Below are positions 9,464-64,000 of a stretch of DNA of 64,000 nucleotides, in pieces. Positions within the stretch are counted from its first letter, which is position 1; each line of letters begins with the position of its first letter. Source of the stretch: a virus. The position numbers and the translations under genes were made by a program. The DNA lies in the IMG/VR virus record IMGVR_UViG_3300033998_000095, positions 1 through 64,000 of that record, one strand, 5' to 3'. The notes beneath the pieces are model-generated. The model was given only the letters and a program-made list of their open reading frames with translations, was not told the origin of the DNA and made no database searches.

Positions 9464-10507
9464 TTATTCACTATCTTTCTTATATTTTTCTTCAGCTGCT
9501 TCTTGATTCATTCTGATAAATAGATAATTTTTATCATCTGTTTTAACCAATGAATAAAATCCCTTAACTTTATTACCAAAGAATTCAACTACTATAGTAC
9601 TACCCCATTTATATATTATACATTTACCTTTATCATAGATATCTACAGTTCCTGCACCATATTCTCCTTCAGGTATTTCACCTTTAAAAGACATCCATTT
9701 GAGATCATGATCTGGTGTTCTTACAGCGAGGATTCTTTCTCCATCTTTAGAAGGAATGTGTGCTTTTGGAAGAGCCCAAGAGGGTGCCTTATCTCCTTTT
9801 TTAATTCTTAAATCAAAATGATGATGAGAGGCATAATGATCATGTATTGTAAATCTTGTAGTAAATGGATAAGCTTCTTGATCTTCTCTTAAGGTATTCA
9901 TATATAAATGTCTGATATAATTTTCAATGATATTTGTATCTGATGCTCGTAATGATTTAATTATTTCCTCAACATATTCTAATCTGGTTTGAATATCTGT
10001 TACCTTTAATTCTTCATATATTTTATATCCAATTAGTTTATATATTTTAATTATATCATAATAAATAGACCATTGTTGTTCAGCTGTCATATATTCTTCA
10101 TCTATGGCAACTGGTAACAATATTAATACTGCTATATCTTCTTTGTCAACATTCATCAATTTATAAGTAGGAATCCATCCATCTAAATCAATATGTTTAG
10201 TTTTATTATAATAATAAGCTAATATATCTTCTAATGATCTATCCATTATTATCAAATCAACATCATCTGGAATAGATTGTTTTTGTTGAATTTCAGCACG
10301 TAATAATTCTTTTTCAAATTCTTCAAATAAACTTTCATTATCAGGATCTTCCCATGGGAGTGTTCTCTTTTCATGCTGCCATTGTCTTATGACCTTTATA
10401 GCCATTTCTTCAACTGTATAATATCCTTTTTTGGCAAGTTCATTAACTAAAGTTGTTTTACCAGAAGCAGCTGGACCTGTTATGATTACTATCTTTTTAT
10501 TGGACAT
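9464..10507 (-). CDS. P-loop kinase fused to LigD-type 3'-phosphoesterase
   Basis: A 347-residue two-domain protein. Residues 1-185 form a P-loop NTPase/kinase with Walker A GPAASGKTT (11-19), an acidic strand LIIMDRS (85-91) and a Q-rich helix, a pattern seen in AAA_28/NadR-like kinases. Residues 215-335 match the 3'-phosphoesterase (PE) domain of bacterial NHEJ ligase LigD: H224, H230-F-D232-L-R234, SWALPK (243-248), TPDH267 and EIPEGEYGAGTVDIYDKG. These correspond to the metal-binding and catalytic residues of LigD PE. Established PE activity removes 3'-ribonucleotides and 3'-phosphates from DNA ends. I infer an end-healing enzyme for nicked or broken phage DNA or RNA, analogous in logic to polynucleotide kinase-phosphatase. 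Its ribosome site overlaps the stop region of the upstream tail gene, so it is co-expressed late. Confidence 0.8.
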   Translation of the reverse strand: MSNKKIVIITGPAASGKTTLVNELAKKGYYTVEEMAIKVIRQWQHEKRTLPWEDPDNESLFEEFEKELLRAEIQQKQSIPDDVDLIIMDRSLEDILAYYYNKTKHIDLDGWIPTYKLMNVDKEDIAVLILLPVAIDEEYMTAEQQWSIYYDIIKIYKLIGYKIYEELKVTDIQTRLEYVEEIIKSLRASDTNIIENYIRHLYMNTLREDQEAYPFTTRFTIHDHYASHHHFDLRIKKGDKAPSWALPKAHIPSKDGERILAVRTPDHDLKWMSFKGEIPEGEYGAGTVDIYDKGKCIIYKWGSTIVVEFFGNKVKGFYSLVKTDDKNYLFIRMNQEAAEEKYKKDSE

Positions 10508-10514
10508 TATTACT

Positions 10515-12485
10515 TTACGCCTCCATCACTATTGTAATATCATTATCGATACCATTTAATTGAGGCTTCAGAATCTCATTTAAAATAGAAGATGAAGTAA
10601 TAACTGATACAGTATCAAATACATTTGACATCGCATCAACAAAGCTTCCCAAATCTTTACCCATAGCAATGGTTCTTATTTCATTAGTTACGTTGGGATT
10701 ATTGCCAAATCTTTTAGCAAATTCTTCAGCAGCATGTTGTAGATACCTTTGAGCATCAATAGAATATTTGATTTGATTATCCAATATTATATCATTTTCT
10801 TTAATTCTTTTCAATGAAGATGCTACTATCGATTCTGGTGTTACTACCTCATTATTTATTATAGATGGTAGCTTATAACTTATTCCTCTTGTAATATTAG
10901 ATAATACTGATATTAAAGTTCCAATATTAGATCCACTTTCATTTATAAATCCACCCAATTCTCTGGTTAATATAGCTTGAATAATAGCTAATTCATTTAA
11001 AGTAGCATTTGGTACTTGTGAAAATAGATTATTGGTAAAATGCTGCATAGAAAATGGATTAAATACATCTTGAATCATAGATAACATTTTTCCTTCTAAA
11101 CCTGAGAATAATAAATTGTTTAACATATTCTTTCCAGATATAGTGAATTTACTAATATTGTTCATATTGAAATTCAATGGACTTCCATTTACAAAATCAT
11201 ATGTTATCATATTACCAGCTATATTTTTTATGTTATCTAATTTAAATATTGTATTAGTATAATCCGTTTTAATTGAAAGTGATTTTTGCAAACCATCAAA
11301 TCTAGCTGATACATTTGATAGTTTAGGATTATCTATTAATTTTTTCACATTAAAATCTTTAACTTGAGCAGATGGAATAGCTGGTTGTGAAATACTGCTA
11401 TAATTGGGTTGTATCATAGATGAAGCCACATCACTTGCTTCTTCAGCTGCAGATCCCATTTTAATATCATATTCTTTACTAAGTACTCTAGTAAATGTCT
11501 TTCCTTGTATTCTATTTTTATAGTTTCTAGACATATTAGTTATAAACTTTTCAGCAGATGGGAAGTCAGGATTCTCTGATCCAGATTGAACCATTACATT
11601 ATATAAATCTTGAATAGTAATAGATACTTCTATATGTCTAGGTACTTCATTAAAATTAAACTCATTAAGTGGTGCAGACCAAGATAAACTAGAAATACCA
11701 CCAAGTTTAACATCCATAATATTACCTAATCTGGCTGAAATATAAGGTGGTTCCAAATAAGATATATTATATCCACCTACAGGTAAAGACAATTTTAATA
11801 ACACTTCTAATGGTTGTATTATGTCTCTAAAATACATCTCACTATTTGGATCAGTAGCAAATGTTCTTAGATCGATAGTAAATGTCCATGACATAGTTGT
11901 GCTAGAATCTTCCCATATATTTGGGATATCTATTCTTCCACCACCAAGAAAAGTACGTGATACATCAGCACCCAATGCTGTATATAATTGTGCAGCATTA
12001 CCACCAATTCTTGTACCATATGTTTGTAATACATCTGTCATTTGTCTTATAAGTTCATCCAAATAAGCAACACCTACACCAGAGAATGCTTGACCAGTTG
12101 GACCTTTTGATACTAAGGCAAGTTGTCTTATTTCTCCAGCTGTATTAAGTCTAATTAAGTTAGCTAAATCTTGTTCTATATTAGATGCATAATAATTATT
12201 GGTATGAGAATATGAGATAGATGTATCAGGTATAACAGCAAATTGATATTCCTGACTTAACTTCTTAACGTTCATGGGTTTTGTTATATTTTCCCATTCA
12301 CATGCTGATGCTATAATATGAAGTATTGGGAAAGTAACTTCAAGAAATGATCTTGTATCAAAATATTCTCCATCTGTTTCTGCACCAATTGGTGGTAAAC
12401 CCATTATTCTATCTACTTTAGGAAATGTAATATCCTTTGAACTTTTAGCAGGTGATGATGATTTTGAAGAGTTTACAGTAGCCAA
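10515..12485 (-). CDS. Putative tail/baseplate tube-associated structural protein
   Basis: A 656-residue protein directly downstream of the tape measure gene. The central part (about residues 195-300: MSWTFTIDLRTF, LEVLLKLSLP, PPYISARLG, SSLSWSAPLNEFNF, IEVSITIQDLYN) has the strand pattern typical of contractile-tail tube-like or tube-initiator domains. The N-terminal 30 residues are Ser/Lys-rich and probably flexible; the C-terminal half is helical. The start is TTG with a GAGGTGA site about 10 bases upstream. By position and pattern it may be a counterpart of T4 gp48/gp54 or a tail-terminator-like protein, but I see no decisive motif. Confidence 0.5.
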   Translation of the reverse strand: MATVNSSKSSSPAKSSKDITFPKVDRIMGLPPIGAETDGEYFDTRSFLEVTFPILHIIASACEWENITKPMNVKKLSQEYQFAVIPDTSISYSHTNNYYASNIEQDLANLIRLNTAGEIRQLALVSKGPTGQAFSGVGVAYLDELIRQMTDVLQTYGTRIGGNAAQLYTALGADVSRTFLGGGRIDIPNIWEDSSTTMSWTFTIDLRTFATDPNSEMYFRDIIQPLEVLLKLSLPVGGYNISYLEPPYISARLGNIMDVKLGGISSLSWSAPLNEFNFNEVPRHIEVSITIQDLYNVMVQSGSENPDFPSAEKFITNMSRNYKNRIQGKTFTRVLSKEYDIKMGSAAEEASDVASSMIQPNYSSISQPAIPSAQVKDFNVKKLIDNPKLSNVSARFDGLQKSLSIKTDYTNTIFKLDNIKNIAGNMITYDFVNGSPLNFNMNNISKFTISGKNMLNNLLFSGLEGKMLSMIQDVFNPFSMQHFTNNLFSQVPNATLNELAIIQAILTRELGGFINESGSNIGTLISVLSNITRGISYKLPSIINNEVVTPESIVASSLKRIKENDIILDNQIKYSIDAQRYLQHAAEEFAKRFGNNPNVTNEIRTIAMGKDLGSFVDAMSNVFDTVSVITSSSILNEILKPQLNGIDNDITIVMEA

Positions 12486-23293: not shown

Positions 23294-24601
23294 CTATAGT
23301 ACACAAAATCCTTTTCTAAACATATAAGGCTTAACTAAACTTGTTTTAACTGGTTTAGACAGTTCCACTAACCTAATATATTCTCCTTTGTTTTGTATGC
23401 CTTTAACGGTATACTTTTTACCATTAAAGATAACAATATCCTTAGGTTGGTAGAAATATCTTTGTTTGCGAATGTTTCTCCTTCCACTTGATTTTTTAAT
23501 TCCACGATACTTGCGAAAGCTTTCTTTGCTTAAATTCTTGTTTCGTGTTCTTCTGCCACAAAACAGTTCTTGTCCTGTTTTAATCAAATTATCTCTTATG
23601 TCGATATATTTTGCATCGTAGAATTTTTCAAGTGAACGATTATTTCGTCTGACTTGTTCAAAATAAATAGGTTCTATTCTTTGTTGACTATTACCACCTG
23701 CTATGCAAAATGCATCATTGTAGTGCGTCTTATCTAATTTAAGACTTATCCTTTTAGACTTAGTAATATATCCATAAGTATGACTACATTTTAATACATT
23801 AACTAATTTCCACCTTACAGTAGACATAAATGTTGCCTCTTTTAATGGCTTTTGTACAGGTTTCATTCCATATAGAATGTTGCCTTCTTTATGGTTTTTA
23901 GGTGTGTGGCATTTAGTGCAAAGTGTAATTAAGTTACTTGGTCTATCTGTTCTATCTTGTTTCCAATAGCCTATATGGTGTACTTCAAGTATGGTATCTT
24001 TTCTACCACATAGTTGACAGGTATAGTTATCCCTATACAGAACATATTCCCTAATATTCCAAAAGCCTTGTTGTTCACCTTGTTGATAGCCTTCACCTTC
24101 TACATTCGGATTTTTAAGTTTATGCGTATCAAAATTAGCTACTTCTATGACTATATTAGTTATAGGAAGTAGCTTTTTAAGGTACTCTATAAACCTAATA
24201 TGAGAGTCTAACTTATGCTTAATAGAAGGTGCAAGCCAACCTTCCTTTTTAGAAGATACTCTATTAGTGAATCGTGGTTTTCTATATCTAAGTTTGCTAC
24301 GTCTAATTCTACGATACATTAATCTTTCTTTAAGTAGTTCTGATATATCACCTCTTAGTTTAACTTCACCAGATATAAGTTCTTTCTTTTCAGTTATAGC
24401 TGAAAAACCTATATGGTTATACCCACTATCTATACCAAGTGTGATATTTTGTGTATAGGTAGTAGTATCATATAAAAGCTGAATAGTAAAAGGTTTAACT
24501 TTAACTACTTTAGCAAGTCCTTGCTTAAGTAGTCTTCTAACTTTACCATGCCTATTAGTTGGCATTAAAGGCTTTCCTTCAATAGATAGTACATATACCA
24601 C
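23294..24601 (-). CDS. iscB: IscB RNA-guided nuclease (RuvC + HNH)
   Basis: 435 residues with all IscB parts: PLMP domain (PLMPTNRHGKVRRLLKQG, 11-28), RuvC-I with D58 in GIDSG, Arg-rich bridge helix (about 97-114), RuvC-II with E153 in VIEVANFD, an HNH domain with two CxxC pairs (195/198 and 228/231), HH208-209, N223 and H232, RuvC-III KTHYNDA with H293 and D296, and a Lys/Arg-rich C-terminus. IscB is the Cas9 ancestor family and cuts DNA using an omega-RNA guide. All catalytic residues are present, so the gene looks active. The start is GTG; a CAAGGAGG site lies eight bases before it. It should be expressed by readthrough from the helicase gene upstream. Confidence 0.93.
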   Translation of the reverse strand: MVYVLSIEGKPLMPTNRHGKVRRLLKQGLAKVVKVKPFTIQLLYDTTTYTQNITLGIDSGYNHIGFSAITEKKELISGEVKLRGDISELLKERLMYRRIRRSKLRYRKPRFTNRVSSKKEGWLAPSIKHKLDSHIRFIEYLKKLLPITNIVIEVANFDTHKLKNPNVEGEGYQQGEQQGFWNIREYVLYRDNYTCQLCGRKDTILEVHHIGYWKQDRTDRPSNLITLCTKCHTPKNHKEGNILYGMKPVQKPLKEATFMSTVRWKLVNVLKCSHTYGYITKSKRISLKLDKTHYNDAFCIAGGNSQQRIEPIYFEQVRRNNRSLEKFYDAKYIDIRDNLIKTGQELFCGRRTRNKNLSKESFRKYRGIKKSSGRRNIRKQRYFYQPKDIVIFNGKKYTVKGIQNKGEYIRLVELSKPVKTSLVKPYMFRKGFCVL

Positions 24602-24863
24602 TTTAATAACCTCCTTGAAAGGTAAGTCAGGCTAAAGCCTGTAGGTCCACATCGCCAATGTTATATGGGGTTTTGTATGGCAGCAGCACTTCTCCTACCC
24701 TCAGAGATGTTTAACCACTGCCCTCAGAGCATAGGACTTGTGGAGCATCCTATGGTGACTATATATTCCCATATAACGTAGCTAAAGAGTAATCCTTTTA
24801 GCTTAGGCTAATCAACCGAGCTTGTTTTTCTACAAGCCCCCACCTCTATAGGTGGTGGGTAGT
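24602..24863 (-). ncRNA. IscB omega-RNA (HEARO-type) scaffold
   Basis: This 260-base stretch between the helicase stop and iscB is noncoding, richer in GC than its surroundings and full of pairings. Seen on the minus strand: the left-end hairpin (24840-24855), a CTTGTAG/CAAG hairpin, a TAGCCTAAGCTAAAAG/CTTTAGCTA pairing, a long-range GTTATATGGG/CCCCATATAAC stem, and a nested CATAGGA/TCCTATG hairpin. It ends in the iscB ribosome site. In known IscB systems the omega-RNA is encoded directly 5' of iscB and its guide is the DNA flanking the left end. Here that would be the last codons of the helicase gene (from about 24864 upward). Confidence 0.75.
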
Positions 24864-26759
24864 TGACTCTTCTTCTATTTCTACTGGTGGTTGTTTACTA
24901 CCCATAACAATAGAACTCATCTGTGCAGACCATTGCATTATATCATGAGTATGTGTGAGTATATTTGGTTTCTTTGTATTTAATAAAGCTTTCCATATAT
25001 ATACTTCTGTATCTTGACCAATTCTATGTATCCTATCAACAGCTTGCTGAAAATCAGCATCCCTATAAGGTAAATCTAAAAATATAGCTTGATTAGCTTC
25101 AATTAATGTAACACCAGTTGATAGCTTCTTTAATGATGCTATAAGCACATCTATGTCATCATATAATCTGAATTGCTTTAAAACTTCATCACTATCTTTA
25201 GTATCTCCAGTTACTACCACATGTTTAACACCTTTTGCATTTAATAAATTTGAAGTATTAGAGATAGTATCTTTAAATGTAGACCAAATAATGGTTTTCT
25301 TTTCTGCTTTATTAATAAGAGCAATTATAACATCTAAGTTTTCAGACACCATATCATTTATAGCTTGAATCTTACGTTTTGTATATATTTGACCCATTGC
25401 TTCTCCTAATGCTTTCATAATAGCATTAGTGATAGATACTTTTGTTTGTCTTAATAAATCTCTAAGACGTTTATCATATGTATTCAACCAATTAAAACAT
25501 ACATTGTAGATGAAATTAAATCTATTTATATCATCTATCTTTTTAATATCATAATTACGTATCATCTTCTTCATAAACTTAGCTTCTTTACGAGTTATAA
25601 CATTATTATTCTCACAATATTCTATTACTATATCAAAATCCTTTATATATTTATCAGTATTCTTAACAAGTTCATTAAAACGTTTCTCCATGTAATCATG
25701 CATATCTTTTACAATATTATCTATTAAATATTTTTCAGGATTTTTTATCTTTAGCCATAAATTAGCTATATGCTTTTCTGGTAAATTTAGAACTTCTGAT
25801 TTCAGCTTTCTGTCCATCATTATACTTAATCTATATTGCAAAATGTCATATGCAAATTCTCTATATTTCTTATATACGTTCATAAAAAGTCTCATAGCTT
25901 CTTTATCAAATAATGGATCCAATAAAGCTATTATTGGGATAAGCTCTGAAGCCAATGCCTTTATTGGTGTACCTGATAATGCCATAATATCATTTATATG
26001 CTTTGCATTTCTTAATGCTAAGATATCACCAGCACGTTTAGTATCCATATATCTAATATTATGAGATTCATCTATAATCATAGTAATATTTCCATCCAAT
26101 AAATAATCAACAGCTTTGTTTACTCTCTCATAATTACTTATTACGTAATCATAATCTGTTGAAACTGGATCTTCATCTACATATGCAATTTTGTATTTGG
26201 TTTTAAATACCTTACCAATTTCTTTTCTCCACACATCAACTACTGACTTAGGGCATATTATAAATACCTGTTTATTATCTATTACTTTAGCAGTAGCCAG
26301 AGCTGTAAATGTTTTACCAAGACCTTGTTCAAAAGCTAATATAGCCCCTCTTAAGTTAAGTTTGACTTTAGATTCAAAATAACTCTCAATAAATTCTTTC
26401 TGATATGGTTTTAATTCCCAGTTTAAATCATCAAGTTTAGAATAATCTATTGGAGGAATTGATTTGGTAACACTTATCAGCCAAGTATTATTTATTAATT
26501 GCTGAGCAATATTTATATAATTACGTTTTCTAAACTTATTTGCTAATTGCTCAAAAAGGTAATATACTTCTGGTGCAAAGAACTTATGAAATTGAAGAAT
26601 AGCTCTATGTTTAAACCATCTAGTCTTAATATGACCAAATAGGCCTATTTCATCCATTATGTTGGTTCCATATAATCTAACCATGTGCTTCATAAACATT
26701 TTATAATGTATATTATATACGTAGATGTATTTTTCATCTTCAGTTACATGAACAGCCAC
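24846..26759 (-). CDS. SNF2-type DEAD/DEAH helicase, 3' end replaced by IscB element
   Basis: 637 residues. Walker A EQGLGKT (144-150), motif Ia FIICPKSVVDVWR, DESHN (230-234), LSGTPI (motif III), motif V STGVTLIEANQAIFLDLPY and motif VI DRIHRIGQ mark a superfamily-2, SNF2-like translocase. Phage proteins of this kind act in recombination or replication restart. The last five codons (TTHHL) and the stop lie inside the left-end hairpin of the IscB element, so the native C-terminus has been exchanged for element sequence; no motif is lost. The ATG follows a GGAGG site. The gene sits between tail genes, away from the replication block. Confidence 0.88.
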   Translation of the reverse strand: MAVHVTEDEKYIYVYNIHYKMFMKHMVRLYGTNIMDEIGLFGHIKTRWFKHRAILQFHKFFAPEVYYLFEQLANKFRKRNYINIAQQLINNTWLISVTKSIPPIDYSKLDDLNWELKPYQKEFIESYFESKVKLNLRGAILAFEQGLGKTFTALATAKVIDNKQVFIICPKSVVDVWRKEIGKVFKTKYKIAYVDEDPVSTDYDYVISNYERVNKAVDYLLDGNITMIIDESHNIRYMDTKRAGDILALRNAKHINDIMALSGTPIKALASELIPIIALLDPLFDKEAMRLFMNVYKKYREFAYDILQYRLSIMMDRKLKSEVLNLPEKHIANLWLKIKNPEKYLIDNIVKDMHDYMEKRFNELVKNTDKYIKDFDIVIEYCENNNVITRKEAKFMKKMIRNYDIKKIDDINRFNFIYNVCFNWLNTYDKRLRDLLRQTKVSITNAIMKALGEAMGQIYTKRKIQAINDMVSENLDVIIALINKAEKKTIIWSTFKDTISNTSNLLNAKGVKHVVVTGDTKDSDEVLKQFRLYDDIDVLIASLKKLSTGVTLIEANQAIFLDLPYRDADFQQAVDRIHRIGQDTEVYIWKALLNTKKPNILTHTHDIMQWSAQMSSIVMGSKQPPVEIEEESTTHHL

Positions 26760-57683: not shown

Positions 57684-58673
57684 TTACCAAGTTAAATTAT
57701 CCATATGATCAATATTAATTCCAAATATATCTATAATTGGTTCTAGTCTCTTATAAATTGCAATATCAAGCATGGCATCTATATCTGGATAAAAAATAGA
57801 GGTATCTAAATTAACTCCTTCAGGTACTGTAATAACATCAATCTGATCGTTTTTAATTAGCAAACCCTCAACACGCATTTGCTTTAATTTCTTATCATAA
57901 TCTTTGATCTTGCTACCATCTACTTTACTTATAGTAAATGTATATCCTCTATCTCCTTCATAAAAGGTAGGACCATATATGACATTGTATATTTTCATGC
58001 CTCTTATAGTCTTTGTCAATACTTTATATTCTCTAGCACCCCATCCACCAGGAACTCCTAAAGTATAATCACCAGCCATAAGTCTGGTTTTATATTCATC
58101 TATATATTTGTCTATTAGATTTAAAATTTGAAAAGAGCTGTATTCTTCTCTTAATATCTTATCTATAACATCTTGTAACATCTGTTTAGTAAACCTTGGG
58201 AAATCTGCTCTAACCACCTCCATACCAGTGATACTTAGATTATCTATTTTCTTTCCTTCTTTGTTGATGATCCATAATGCATACTTCTTCTTTGCATCTA
58301 AGAACATAGCTCTCTTAATAACTAATTCCTCTTTAAATGTAAAGTTATATTTAGTGGCAAGCTCAGAATCACCAGCATTATGCCTTTTAAGCATTTCAGG
58401 AATGATATATTTATTAATATATTCAGAACAATTTCTAACAATCTTTAAAGTGGTTTCTGTCTTTTCATCTTCACTTATTGAATCATATTTATCACCATAT
58501 AATGACTTGAGCACTGGTTCAATAAAGAGAAACATTGAGTCAGTATTATGTACTAAAATGTCATTAGCAAAAAACATATGGTTATTATCAACTTCAATAT
58601 CATATACATACTCTGGTACATTATTTTCAATTTTCTCAACAGATGCTATTCTTTCCTTTACTATAGGCATCAT
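57684..58673 (-). CDS. DNA polymerase B, C-terminal half, with C-intein at its start
   Basis: 329 residues. The first 43 are the C-terminal part of an intein: EYVYDIEVDNNHMFFANDI (block F) and ILVHN (block G) with the penultimate His and terminal Asn. Directly after comes TDSMFLFIEP, the second half of the polymerase catalytic motif C (YGD|TDS). The remaining 286 residues are the rest of the palm and thumb (KKKYALWIINKEGK, DNLSITGMEVVRADFPRFTKQM). The protein cannot act alone because the first catalytic Asp of motif C is on the other polypeptide (60194-63484). It has its own GGGGG ribosome site and ATG-ATG start. Confidence 0.93.
   Translation of the reverse strand: MMPIVKERIASVEKIENNVPEYVYDIEVDNNHMFFANDILVHNTDSMFLFIEPVLKSLYGDKYDSISEDEKTETTLKIVRNCSEYINKYIIPEMLKRHNAGDSELATKYNFTFKEELVIKRAMFLDAKKKYALWIINKEGKKIDNLSITGMEVVRADFPRFTKQMLQDVIDKILREEYSSFQILNLIDKYIDEYKTRLMAGDYTLGVPGGWGAREYKVLTKTIRGMKIYNVIYGPTFYEGDRGYTFTISKVDGSKIKDYDKKLKQMRVEGLLIKNDQIDVITVPEGVNLDTSIFYPDIDAMLDIAIYKRLEPIIDIFGINIDHMDNLTW
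58545..58673 (-). other. Split intein, C-terminal fragment (43 aa)
   Basis: Codes for the last intein blocks ending in His-Asn at codon 58547-58545; the +1 extein residue is Thr (58544-58542). Together with the 117-residue N-fragment it makes about 160 residues, the size of a minimal intein without a homing endonuclease. Confidence 0.92.
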
Positions 58674-60193: not shown

Positions 60194-63100
60194 TTATTTT
60201 TGGTTTGTCAATACAAGATCAGAATCCAATATTTCATTTGGTTTAACTTGCATTAATTGTCCATCTCTCTCAATCATAATAGAATGGTCTTCAGTTACAA
60301 TTAATTCTTTTCCACTTTCAGTTCTAATTCTATACATTGGTTTATTAACTTTATGTCGTGATATATTATTTATTGATCTATATACAGCATCAGAATCTTC
60401 ATATGTAAGTACTTTGTCATTTGCAAAGATATATTCTCTTCCTATATAATTCATAAGTTTGTATTCCTTATGCCTTTCAAATAGATCTTTGATTGGTATA
60501 CCTTCTGGATATTGTTCAGTATTTATTTTTGTATTTTCATCAACAGAATCACCATATACTATATTCTCCAGTACATCAGCATCGAGAAATCTTGTATCAA
60601 ATTCATATGGTTCAATATCCATCTTGTGAGCATCTCTCATTTTATTTAAATACTGATGAATATGATATGCACCCATTGTTACTATTTCTCTTCCAGATGC
60701 AGTTATAGTCTCTGCAGATGGAAAATGAAACAGTCTAAAATATTGATTAGCAATTCCACCATATAGTGAGTTAGTAAGAACCTTATAAGTAAATTGCCAG
60801 TTATTATATCTTTCTGCTAACATATGATTATTATTCTCAATAGCTTTAAACATTTCATTTTTATATCGTTTACGTTCTCTAATAAGCATATCTATAATTT
60901 CATAATAAACTGACAATTTCGTGTTATGATTGACATACATTGTACCCATTATTGTTATTATCAAATTGTGTTTCGTTATAGTCTCATGCAATTTCTGTAC
61001 TGTTATCTGTTTAACATTTAAGTTCTTATCTTCATAATTAATAAGTCTATCTGGTTGAGGTAATAATTCATCTCTATTATAGATATACTCACGAGCTATA
61101 TATTCATCTACCTTACCAACATAGGTGTCAATAGAAATATTATATCGTGCAATGATATATGGATACAGAGAAGAAAGATCCAAATCAGCCAACCAGTTAT
61201 ATAATCCTTTTAATGGTTTTCTTACAAAAGCACCTTTAAGCTTTTCTGTTTCCTGATCATTATCTTTATCATATTCATATTTTTTACATATAACTGTCTT
61301 ATTTTGTTTATCCAATGTTGTAAATAGAATACCATCTATAATTGGAAGTGTGCTGAATGATTCCTCCCAACTGATGTTGGTAGCTCTTATAATGTTAAAT
61401 TGAATATCAATATATTTAAGTTTATTGTCCAACTTTCTAACAAGATGAACATCATTAATATTATAAGCAATGAATCTATTGGGATCTGATAACCACATAT
61501 CATCAAATCGTTTGTCAAGAGACAATTTCTTTATACCAAGTTCGAATTCAGCAATAAATCCAAGTGTATATGATTCTCTTTTACTGAATGTTCTTTTCTT
61601 ATACAATGTTAAATAATCACATTCCACGACATATGGAATGTATGGTTTATTAGTTCTCTCATTAATAAAAATACGACCATATTTGTTTTTACATTCTATT
61701 CCAAGATATTGTGATCTATTAATAATAATTGGCCAGTCAAATGCTGATGAGTTCCATCCTGTTACAAGATCAGGATCTATTTCATCAAATTTTTGAATAA
61801 ACCCGTTCAACATCTTTCTCTCATCATTATATACAAATATTTCAATATTACATTCGTCTTTATATTCAAGATGTTTGATTATTTCTTGTTTATCAATGTT
61901 CAAATTGAATGAGTTGTTTATAAATGTATAATAAGTATCAGTATAGTTATCATACAGGGTTATCAACGATATAGCATATCTCTTTGCAGCTGCCATCATG
62001 TCATCAAGAAGCATCATATTGCCATTGAGAAACAATTCGATATCTATAGCAGCAATTCTTAATGGTTGTTCAGTCTCAGTATAAGTATTTCTAAACTGAA
62101 TATTCTTATATACTGATAGATTCATATCTCCAAAGACATTAAACCCTTTACTCTTCAAATCATTTATTACATTTACTCTATCTTTAAACTGTATAACCTT
62201 GAGCTTTAGTTTATCCTTGTATTCAACAGTATTATTTGATTTACCATAATATAGAGCATATTTATCATCTGTAGTATGAATTATTTTATCTTGTCCTCTT
62301 CTTAATATATAATTAACTTCAGATTTAAGATAATTGTATACTGTATTGACTAACATTATATTATCTGATGTATTACTTGTGGTATCAGTATCACTCTTAT
62401 TGTCATTAACTGTTTCATATTTAGTATTGTTAGGAATAGGAAATAACTTCCTCACATCATCAGTAGTATAAGACATATGTGGTTGAACATTATCTTTTGA
62501 TTCTACAGCATATCTTATTTGTTTTAACCTATTAGCAAAAATATCGTATCTGGACATATTTCTGCATATTGCTGATGGATGAATACATGGCAATAATAGA
62601 TGATCATTATATTTATATATCTTTGTCATAGCATCAGTTATCTTATCTGTTATACCAAATCTACTACATGGATAATTACCAAGTGGAACTATAACAGCAT
62701 CAGCAGGTAATTTAGAAATGATTAACTCTAGATTGTCAAAACAATATGCTATCTCATCTTTCATTGGTGGGTTTGATGGTTGATGAAAACATAAACAAAC
62801 ATTCATAACACCCCAATGAATATCATTAAAACCAGTATTATCTAATGTTTGTCTTAATAACTGTCCTGCACGTCCAACAAAGGGTTTTCCTTCTTTAATT
62901 TCATTGACAGCTGGTGCTTCTCCAACAAATAATACTTTAACTTGAGATATATCATTTGTTGTAAAATCAAAAATAGTTCTTTGTATATCATCTTTATTAT
63001 TAGATTTGCATAATGCACATTGTGTAATGAGTCTCTTTTCTATCTCATCTTTCAATGGAGAGATAGTATCTATAGTATCTTCAACATTGCAAGAAACAAT

Positions 63101-63484
63101 AGATTCTTGATTAAGATTTTCAGTATTATTATTTTTTGTCAATGTAAGATATGTTTTAATATCTTCTTCTGATAAATAGGGATGTTGGTGTTTTAATTGA
63201 TTTATTTCATCAGTAACTTTCTTTGATTTGTTTGACATATATTGTATCTGTTTAGATCTATTAATATTTCTGTGAAATTCAGATAATTTATCAAAAGGTA
63301 CATTTCGTGCAAGTATAGGATTAGTATTAATTAACTGATCTAAGTATATACAAGATAACACATCATCTTCAGATATATTTAATATCGTAGATATATTAAG
63401 TTGTTTAACTGAATCATCCAATGAATCAGTCTTATGTTGTATATAATAAATGTATTTAGTTAGTGGTGATAACTCTTTTGCCAT
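60194..63484 (-). CDS. UDG-fused DNA polymerase B, N-terminal half, with N-intein at its end
   Basis: 1096 residues in four parts. Residues 150-330: family-4 UDG-like domain with four Cys for an iron-sulphur cluster (156, 159, 232, 248), GEAPAVNE (188-195), PFVGRAGQLL and HPSA (302-305). Residues about 470-690: 3'-5' exonuclease with AIDIE, GWNSSAFDW and YNINDVHL. Residues about 760-978: polymerase motif A DLDLSSLYPYI, motif B KVLTNSLYGG and the first part of motif C, VYGD. Then about 117 residues of intein, SVDENTKIN (block A) and VTEDHSIMI (block B), and a stop. The other half of the intein and of motif C is in 57684-58673. A GGGGG site precedes the ATG. Confidence 0.93.
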   Translation of the reverse strand: MAKELSPLTKYIYYIQHKTDSLDDSVKQLNISTILNISEDDVLSCIYLDQLINTNPILARNVPFDKLSEFHRNINRSKQIQYMSNKSKKVTDEINQLKHQHPYLSEEDIKTYLTLTKNNNTENLNQESIVSCNVEDTIDTISPLKDEIEKRLITQCALCKSNNKDDIQRTIFDFTTNDISQVKVLFVGEAPAVNEIKEGKPFVGRAGQLLRQTLDNTGFNDIHWGVMNVCLCFHQPSNPPMKDEIAYCFDNLELIISKLPADAVIVPLGNYPCSRFGITDKITDAMTKIYKYNDHLLLPCIHPSAICRNMSRYDIFANRLKQIRYAVESKDNVQPHMSYTTDDVRKLFPIPNNTKYETVNDNKSDTDTTSNTSDNIMLVNTVYNYLKSEVNYILRRGQDKIIHTTDDKYALYYGKSNNTVEYKDKLKLKVIQFKDRVNVINDLKSKGFNVFGDMNLSVYKNIQFRNTYTETEQPLRIAAIDIELFLNGNMMLLDDMMAAAKRYAISLITLYDNYTDTYYTFINNSFNLNIDKQEIIKHLEYKDECNIEIFVYNDERKMLNGFIQKFDEIDPDLVTGWNSSAFDWPIIINRSQYLGIECKNKYGRIFINERTNKPYIPYVVECDYLTLYKKRTFSKRESYTLGFIAEFELGIKKLSLDKRFDDMWLSDPNRFIAYNINDVHLVRKLDNKLKYIDIQFNIIRATNISWEESFSTLPIIDGILFTTLDKQNKTVICKKYEYDKDNDQETEKLKGAFVRKPLKGLYNWLADLDLSSLYPYIIARYNISIDTYVGKVDEYIAREYIYNRDELLPQPDRLINYEDKNLNVKQITVQKLHETITKHNLIITIMGTMYVNHNTKLSVYYEIIDMLIRERKRYKNEMFKAIENNNHMLAERYNNWQFTYKVLTNSLYGGIANQYFRLFHFPSAETITASGREIVTMGAYHIHQYLNKMRDAHKMDIEPYEFDTRFLDADVLENIVYGDSVDENTKINTEQYPEGIPIKDLFERHKEYKLMNYIGREYIFANDKVLTYEDSDAVYRSINNISRHKVNKPMYRIRTESGKELIVTEDHSIMIERDGQLMQVKPNEILDSDLVLTNQK
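60197..60547 (-). other. Split intein, N-terminal fragment (117 aa)
   Basis: Starts with Ser (codon 60547-60545) directly after the polymerase residues YGD and ends at the gene's stop codon. Blocks A and B are present; no homing endonuclease motif (LAGLIDADG or HNH) is visible. Confidence 0.92.
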
Positions 63485-63542: not shown

Positions 63543-64000
63543 TGGCAAGAAGTCTCCCATCTTCTACAAGTGGGAGATGAATTGCCAATTATTGTTATGA
63601 TTTATGAACTCTATATGCTTAAAACTAACTTGTTTATAAGATTTATTTGGTATAGTGATATAATTACCTTCTATATCTTGTATATATGCACCACCATTAG
63701 TAAAGCCTGTTATAAAACCAACTTTACCAAATACCTTCACTTTATCATTAAGATAAAAGCCATTTCTATATTTAGTGTTTTTACTGTTTCTTTTTTGAGT
63801 TCGATTTGGTTCTTTTCTACCTTTTCTTGGTATTGCTTCATGTAAACTACGCTTCTTTTTTCTAAATTGCTTTATTTTGAAGTAGTTGTCTGGATTATGC
63901 TTTATACTTTCTATTCCTGTTATAGCTATCGCATCATTATAATGAGTTTTTTCTAAGCCTAATTCTTTTCTTCTTATAGTTGTATAACTGCCATAGACTA
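63543..64000 (-). mobile_element. Second IscB element, right end and 3' part (runs off window)
   Basis: Right-end hairpin about 63554-63576 with outer stem TGGCA/TGCCA (63543-63547, 63583-63587) and the same flanking words ATTCATC and CTTCT (minus strand) as the element at 23.3 kb. It is inserted between the promoter side of the polymerase gene and whatever lies beyond the window. Its left end, omega-RNA and any transposase are outside the window. Confidence 0.75.
63564..64000 (-). CDS. iscB: IscB RNA-guided nuclease, C-terminal part (5' end beyond window)
   Basis: About 145 codons. It includes RuvC-III (KTHYNDAIAITG, with His and Asp as in the complete IscB at 23.3 kb), followed by a basic stretch (FRKKKRSLHEAIPRKGRKEP) and the C-terminal strand domain (KVKVFGKVGFITGFTNGGAYIQDIEG). 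The stop codon TAG lies inside the right-end hairpin of the element. Sequence differs clearly from the first IscB, so this is a separate lineage or an older copy. The N-terminal catalytic parts cannot be checked here. Confidence 0.85.
   Translation of the reverse strand, partial: VYGSYTTIRRKELGLEKTHYNDAIAITGIESIKHNPDNYFKIKQFRKKKRSLHEAIPRKGRKEPNRTQKRNSKNTKYRNGFYLNDKVKVFGKVGFITGFTNGGAYIQDIEGNYITIPNKSYKQVSFKHIEFINHNNNWQFISHL

Follow-up and report, generated by a model that had tools for sequence, protein, structure and literature searches.

The window analysed here, 64,000 nucleotides long, opens a virus record of 112 kb (IMGVR_UViG_3300033998_000095). On its minus strand, positions 9464..10507 hold a complete gene for a protein of 347 aa that joins a P-loop kinase-like domain to a LigD-type 3'-phosphoesterase (PE) domain in a single intact ORF. 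A Shine-Dalgarno sequence, GGAGG (10520..10524, minus strand), lies 12 nt upstream of its ATG. The gene of a 656-aa protein is located 7 nt before the fusion gene and a tail-fibre gene 20 nt after it; on the side of the 656-aa gene, tape-measure/M23 and baseplate wedge follow. The first-pass annotation, made from the sequence alone, had described a P-loop kinase-LigD PE fusion within a tail operon, and both parts of this description are borne out: the two domains share one ORF, each with a Pfam match far above the cut-off, and the ORF lies in a tail operon. The record also encodes a T4-like terminase and a sheath protein, which mark the virus as a contractile-tailed phage distant from those in culture.

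Other features of the record were noted along the way. IscB-type genes are present at 23294-24601 (minus strand) and, in record coordinates, at 88563-89876 (plus strand) and 63564-64829 (minus strand); two of them have strong RRXRR and HNH matches, and the one at 63564 was assigned by sequence similarity alone. A HEARO RNA (Rfam, 160 bits; 24641-24867, minus strand) lies directly upstream of the IscB-type gene at 23294. A family B DNA polymerase is spread over two minus-strand genes: the one at 60194-63484 encodes an N-terminal uracil-DNA glycosylase domain, the exonuclease, part of the polymerase and the start of an intein, and the one at 57684-58673 encodes the end of an intein and the rest of the polymerase. 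Judged by this arrangement, the pair looks like a split intein.

The fused ORF is present in two further assemblies, which shows that it is not an assembly chimera. One copy is in another IMG/VR contig (3300034685_000067; L002), with 99% protein identity, and the other (L003), with 98% protein identity, comes from a public MAG contig. The DNA around the ORF is about 96% identical over 17 kb between assemblies. That the fusion has been seen in three closely related records only is the one point in favour of an artefact joining two genes, an explanation that these copies effectively refute. The search for further fusions proposed in the first-pass annotation yielded nothing beyond these two near-identical copies. 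The viral scans gave no other kinase-PE fusion and the scan of genome contigs gave L003 only, although these scans used short exact peptide patterns, which distant fusions may escape. No annotated phage relative of the fusion protein was found by tblastn among 50,697 phage records, plasmid matches covered LigD PE parts only, and 295 genomes of the phylum of the L003 MAG contained ordinary LigD/PE and unrelated P-loop proteins and no kinase-PE fusion. Members of that phylum have small genomes, and some read TGA as sense. A published kinase-PE fusion was likewise not found in the literature searched, whose reach excluded most subscription papers. The protein is thus a member of the PE superfamily in a new domain combination, for which we found no earlier report. 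A known anti-phage system was ruled out, PADLOC giving only weak P-loop matches.

The PE domain comprises residues 215-335 (9503..9865, minus strand). The Pfam family LigD_N (PF13298) matches residues 222-322 with an E-value of 1.1e-21 and 77.4 bits, against a cut-off of 31.1. The relatives of this part in the PDB include archaeal and Pseudomonas aeruginosa PE structures (3n9b, 3p4h, 3p43, 5dmp; E 3.4e-22 for 3p4h), and three archaeal PEs of solved structure share 42-45% identity with the PE half over the stretches that align. The score for the LigD PE equivalog TIGR02777 is 89 bits, below its cut-off of 144. Together with its place in a PE tree, the LigD_N and PDB matches assign the domain to the fold family of LigD PE and the archaeal stand-alone PEs, with which it shares the His-His-Asp metal ligands, the Arg and His phosphate ligands and the motif GEIPEGEYGAG. 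In the PE part, the three close strains differ by 0-1 nonsynonymous against 4 synonymous changes; the PE is clearly conserved among them.

In the PE of P. aeruginosa LigD, His42, His48 and Asp50 bind the metal, and Arg52, His84 and Tyr88 contact the scissile phosphate (PMC8656161, PMC4797286); mutation of His84 or Tyr88 inactivates the enzyme (PMC8656161). Alignment showed that five of these six catalytic residues are kept in the fusion protein: the metal triad H224, H230 and D232 together with R234 (9806..9838, minus strand), and H267. Four residues downstream of H267, the tyrosine (Tyr88/Tyr86) is replaced by Trp271 (9695..9709, minus strand, for the two positions). The earlier claim that all catalytic residues of LigD PE are present therefore holds, with correct numbering, for the five residues it had listed but not for the sixth. 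By analogy with the P. aeruginosa mutants, the tryptophan may leave the PE inactive or acting on another substrate. The same residue occupies this position in the viral PEs L009/L010, L078/L079/L104, L082, L094 and L095, so that kinship with PE stands while a strict six-residue set does not; moreover, separate lineages of the PE tree share the Trp form, which counts against a dead one-off. In other viral PEs (L096, L097, L099, L100 and L088/L089), which cluster together in the PE tree, the Tyr88 position is taken by Glu, Gln or Ala.

A second group of residues in the P. aeruginosa enzyme, Arg14, Arg15, Glu21 and Glu82, is required for 3'-phosphatase activity and dispensable for the removal of 3'-ribonucleosides (PMC8656161, PMC4797286). 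The first three have no counterpart in the fusion protein, which lacks the N-terminal R-D...E arm because the linker from the kinase precedes the domain, and Glu82 is replaced by Pro265; in addition, Gln40 corresponds to His222. The residues retained and lost make the trimming of 3'-nucleosides a more probable activity of this PE than the removal of 3'-phosphates, and the T4-like role in removing 3'-phosphates that had been suggested for it is not supported.

The kinase-fold domain comprises residues 1-187 (9947..10507, minus strand) and was assigned to AAA_28 and to a COG3911-like group by Pfam, profile comparison, an AlphaFold2 model and Foldseek. The AAA_28 match spans residues 7-101 (5e-16, 59.8 bits, cut-off 27), whereas AAA_33 gave 18-19 bits, below its cut-off of 27. 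The best profile match was COG3911-like (E 2.9e-13); the same comparison gave 0.02-0.2 for RapZ, CoaE, thymidylate kinase and NadR targets and 1.6 for T4 Pnk. The relatives themselves come from searches; the name COG3911 is given to the group on its motif pattern. With COG3911-like AAA_28 proteins such as WP_022650058.1, the domain shares the Walker A motif, LPW.D, DR..D..Y and the C-terminal GY..v..L...R. It differs from them in that identity over the domain is at most 30%, in that their 'GR' motif reads 'AI' and in that the lid region (residues 123-153) contains no Lys or Arg where they carry 'D.ER'. The COG3911-like relatives ('AAA family ATPases'), including the nearest plasmid relatives, are single-domain proteins, unlike the fusion with its attached PE.

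The Walker A sequence GPAASGKT (residues 11-18; 10454..10477, minus strand) has G11, G16 and K17 invariant in alignments A4 and A8, and the DR(S)xxD sequence (residues 89-94; 10226..10243, minus strand), the DR-G/S motif of this kinase class, has D89, R90 and D94 invariant in alignments A4, A6 and A8. Neither motif is broken in any of the three close strains, in which the kinase part differs from the window by few changes (3 nonsynonymous and 1-2 synonymous). The altered 'GR' motif and the non-basic lid would fit a P-loop that acts as an ATP-binding regulator or is a degenerate kinase, leaving the PE as the only catalytic part or the whole protein as a structural or injection-related component of the tail. 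Given that the Walker A and DRxxD motifs are unbroken, we regard this explanation as quite improbable; phosphotransfer appears plausible, if not assured.

As a joint alignment of kinase and PE misplaced the kinases, the kinase domain was modelled alone, with relatives. The AlphaFold2 model obtained from six sequences had a pLDDT of 77; a full-length model made without an alignment (pLDDT 36) was set aside. Foldseek ranked NadR, thymidylate kinases and deoxynucleoside kinases first, and no polynucleotide kinase was among the best 50. A T4 Pnkp-type kinase was ruled out by these fold neighbours and by the profile scores. NadR kinase was also rejected: its fold is near, but its motif is DTD and not DR..D, and the phage of the L094 contig described below has a separate NadR gene elsewhere in its record. 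A match to a metabolic kinase, which the first-pass annotation had named as evidence against its reading, was found in part, in the form of these fold neighbours.

Elsewhere in the genome, where the first-pass annotation had advised looking for one, the record encodes a ligase. It is a separate ATP-dependent DNA ligase of 285 aa (record 104595-105452) with nucleotidyltransferase and OB domains, matching PF01068 (2.7e-28) and phrog_114 (1e-75); the MAG holding L003 also encodes an ATP-dependent DNA ligase. No match to HAD-type PNK3P or to the RNA_ligase family was detected in the 112-kb record, and Ku (PF02735) was detected neither there nor in the L094 record nor in the L003 MAG, all of which may be incomplete. 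Of the components of bacterial NHEJ with Ku and LigD, the phage thus has an ATP-dependent DNA ligase, as a separate gene, but no Ku match. The lack of an RNA_ligase match weakens the role against host tRNA cleavage that had been considered for the protein.

These data bear directly on the comparison with T4 polynucleotide kinase-phosphatase (PseT), which is also a two-domain phage protein with the kinase fold first and the 3'-end domain second. A functional analogue would have its kinase act on 5'-OH ends and its PE strip 3'-phosphates, healing both ends for the phage ligase. The sharing of one chain by a kinase and a 3'-end domain, the ligase gene and the failure to detect a HAD-type PNK3P in the record are consistent with this idea. 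However, the kinase subfamily is COG3911-like and unrelated to that of T4 beyond the P-loop, the PE that replaces the HAD phosphatase lacks all four of the P. aeruginosa 3'-phosphatase determinants and has Trp for Tyr88 (PMC8656161), and the genome has a DNA ligase rather than Rnl1. We therefore consider such an analogue unlikely. As for the wider notion of an end-processing enzyme, a nucleic-acid role remains plausible for the PE half, but the kinase half is not Pnk-like.

The fold neighbours of the kinase suggest another pairing, in which the PE would free 3'-terminal (ribo)nucleosides and the fused nucleoside-kinase fold would phosphorylate these or other small nucleosides or nucleotides. 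The closest folds are NadR ribosylnicotinamide kinase, thymidylate kinase and deoxynucleoside kinases, and the product of the PE reaction is a free nucleoside (PMC8656161). The phage is furthermore active in nucleotide supply, since it encodes ThyX and NrdD/NrdG. The lid without a basic residue argues against this nucleoside recapture, as does the fact that no substrate is known for COG3911-like proteins. We also know of no precedent for such coupling and hold it to be a rather remote prospect. The genes for the NrdG/NrdD anaerobic ribonucleotide reductase, ThyX and a DHH-family protein (record 93223-95429, 99928-100572 and 109863-110849, plus strand), taken as a set, suggest that the host is likely anaerobic.

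The order in which the fusion was assembled can be read from a 122-kb viral contig, L094, in which a tape-measure/M23 homologue, a homologue of the 656-aa gene (30% identity, E 7e-70) and a PE gene follow one another as they do around the fusion. This PE gene (L094:5950-6705) is 51% identical to fusion residues 203-347 and has no kinase; it ends in a C-terminal extension of 100 aa that has no recognised similarity. The two PEs are paired in the PE tree with support of 97/92. Shared synteny and this pairing indicate that the PE gene is the older resident of the tail operon. Most simply, the kinase would be a lineage-specific addition in the lineage of the window; the alternative order, loss of the kinase in L094, is compatible with the same data. 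No COG3911-like kinase was detected in the L094 record, nor was a PF01068 ligase, and cooperation between PE and a ligase is therefore not general.

Apart from the fusion, the scans produced 40 viral PE loci, of which about 34 are distinct; PE genes are thus not rare in phages. None of the 40 has a Walker A motif in the same ORF (for L013/L014, a plain LigD, this was judged by reading). Some of these PEs stand alone and many are combined with further domains, whose names were read from the sequences and not each profile-tested: an ATP-dependent ligase, fused or adjacent (L015, L075, L083, L087-L089, L101-L103 and L105), or a primase-polymerase (L016 and L073). Such links with ligases or primases speak for the end-processing role proposed below. 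Still others lie within proteins of about 1,000-3,000 aa (L071, L072, L074, L080, L087, L098 and L102). By eye, some of these giant proteins have primase-polymerase-like or ATP-dependent-ligase-like segments, LigD-like parts in polyvalent-type proteins. The first-pass annotation had held that PE domains do not normally occur in phage tail operons. This proved incorrect: besides the PE gene of L094, near tape-measure genes, stand-alone tail-module PEs are found near a baseplate hub gene (L009/L010) and near sheath genes (L077 and L085/L086). Their recurrence in tail modules would also suit a structural or injection-related role, the explanation disfavoured above.

Taken together, we propose, with middling confidence, that the fusion protein serves this contractile-tailed phage in DNA 3'-end processing, that it arose when a COG3911-like kinase-fold domain was added to an older tail-operon PE, and that the phage ligase closes the ends it produces. 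In the proposed mechanism, H224, H230 and D232 would hold Mn2+, and the PE half would take 3'-terminal nucleosides, preferably ribonucleosides, off DNA ends. Sealing of the trimmed end would then fall to the minimal ATP-dependent DNA ligase that the phage itself encodes, and any residual 3'-phosphate could be cleared by other enzymes. The kinase half would bind ATP and probably pass a phosphate to a 5'-OH, either of a nucleic-acid end or of a free nucleoside or nucleotide. The position in the tail operon might imply late expression. A bolder version, which we think doubtful, would make the protein a new, independently assembled two-ended end-healer, with a nucleoside-kinase-type domain serving as 5'-OH polynucleotide kinase next to a Trp-variant PE and forming, with the minimal phage ligase, a set of three activities in a phage without Pnkp.

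In the literature searched, PE is mainly treated as belonging to NHEJ in bacteria and archaea. The present analysis shows that PE genes are numerous in phages, where they turn up repeatedly within tail modules and as parts of giant multidomain proteins, and that phage PEs vary at the catalytic tyrosine, with Trp, Glu, Gln or Ala in its place. A relative that shares the gene order but lacks the kinase makes it possible to read in which order the fusion was assembled and to test its activity directly.
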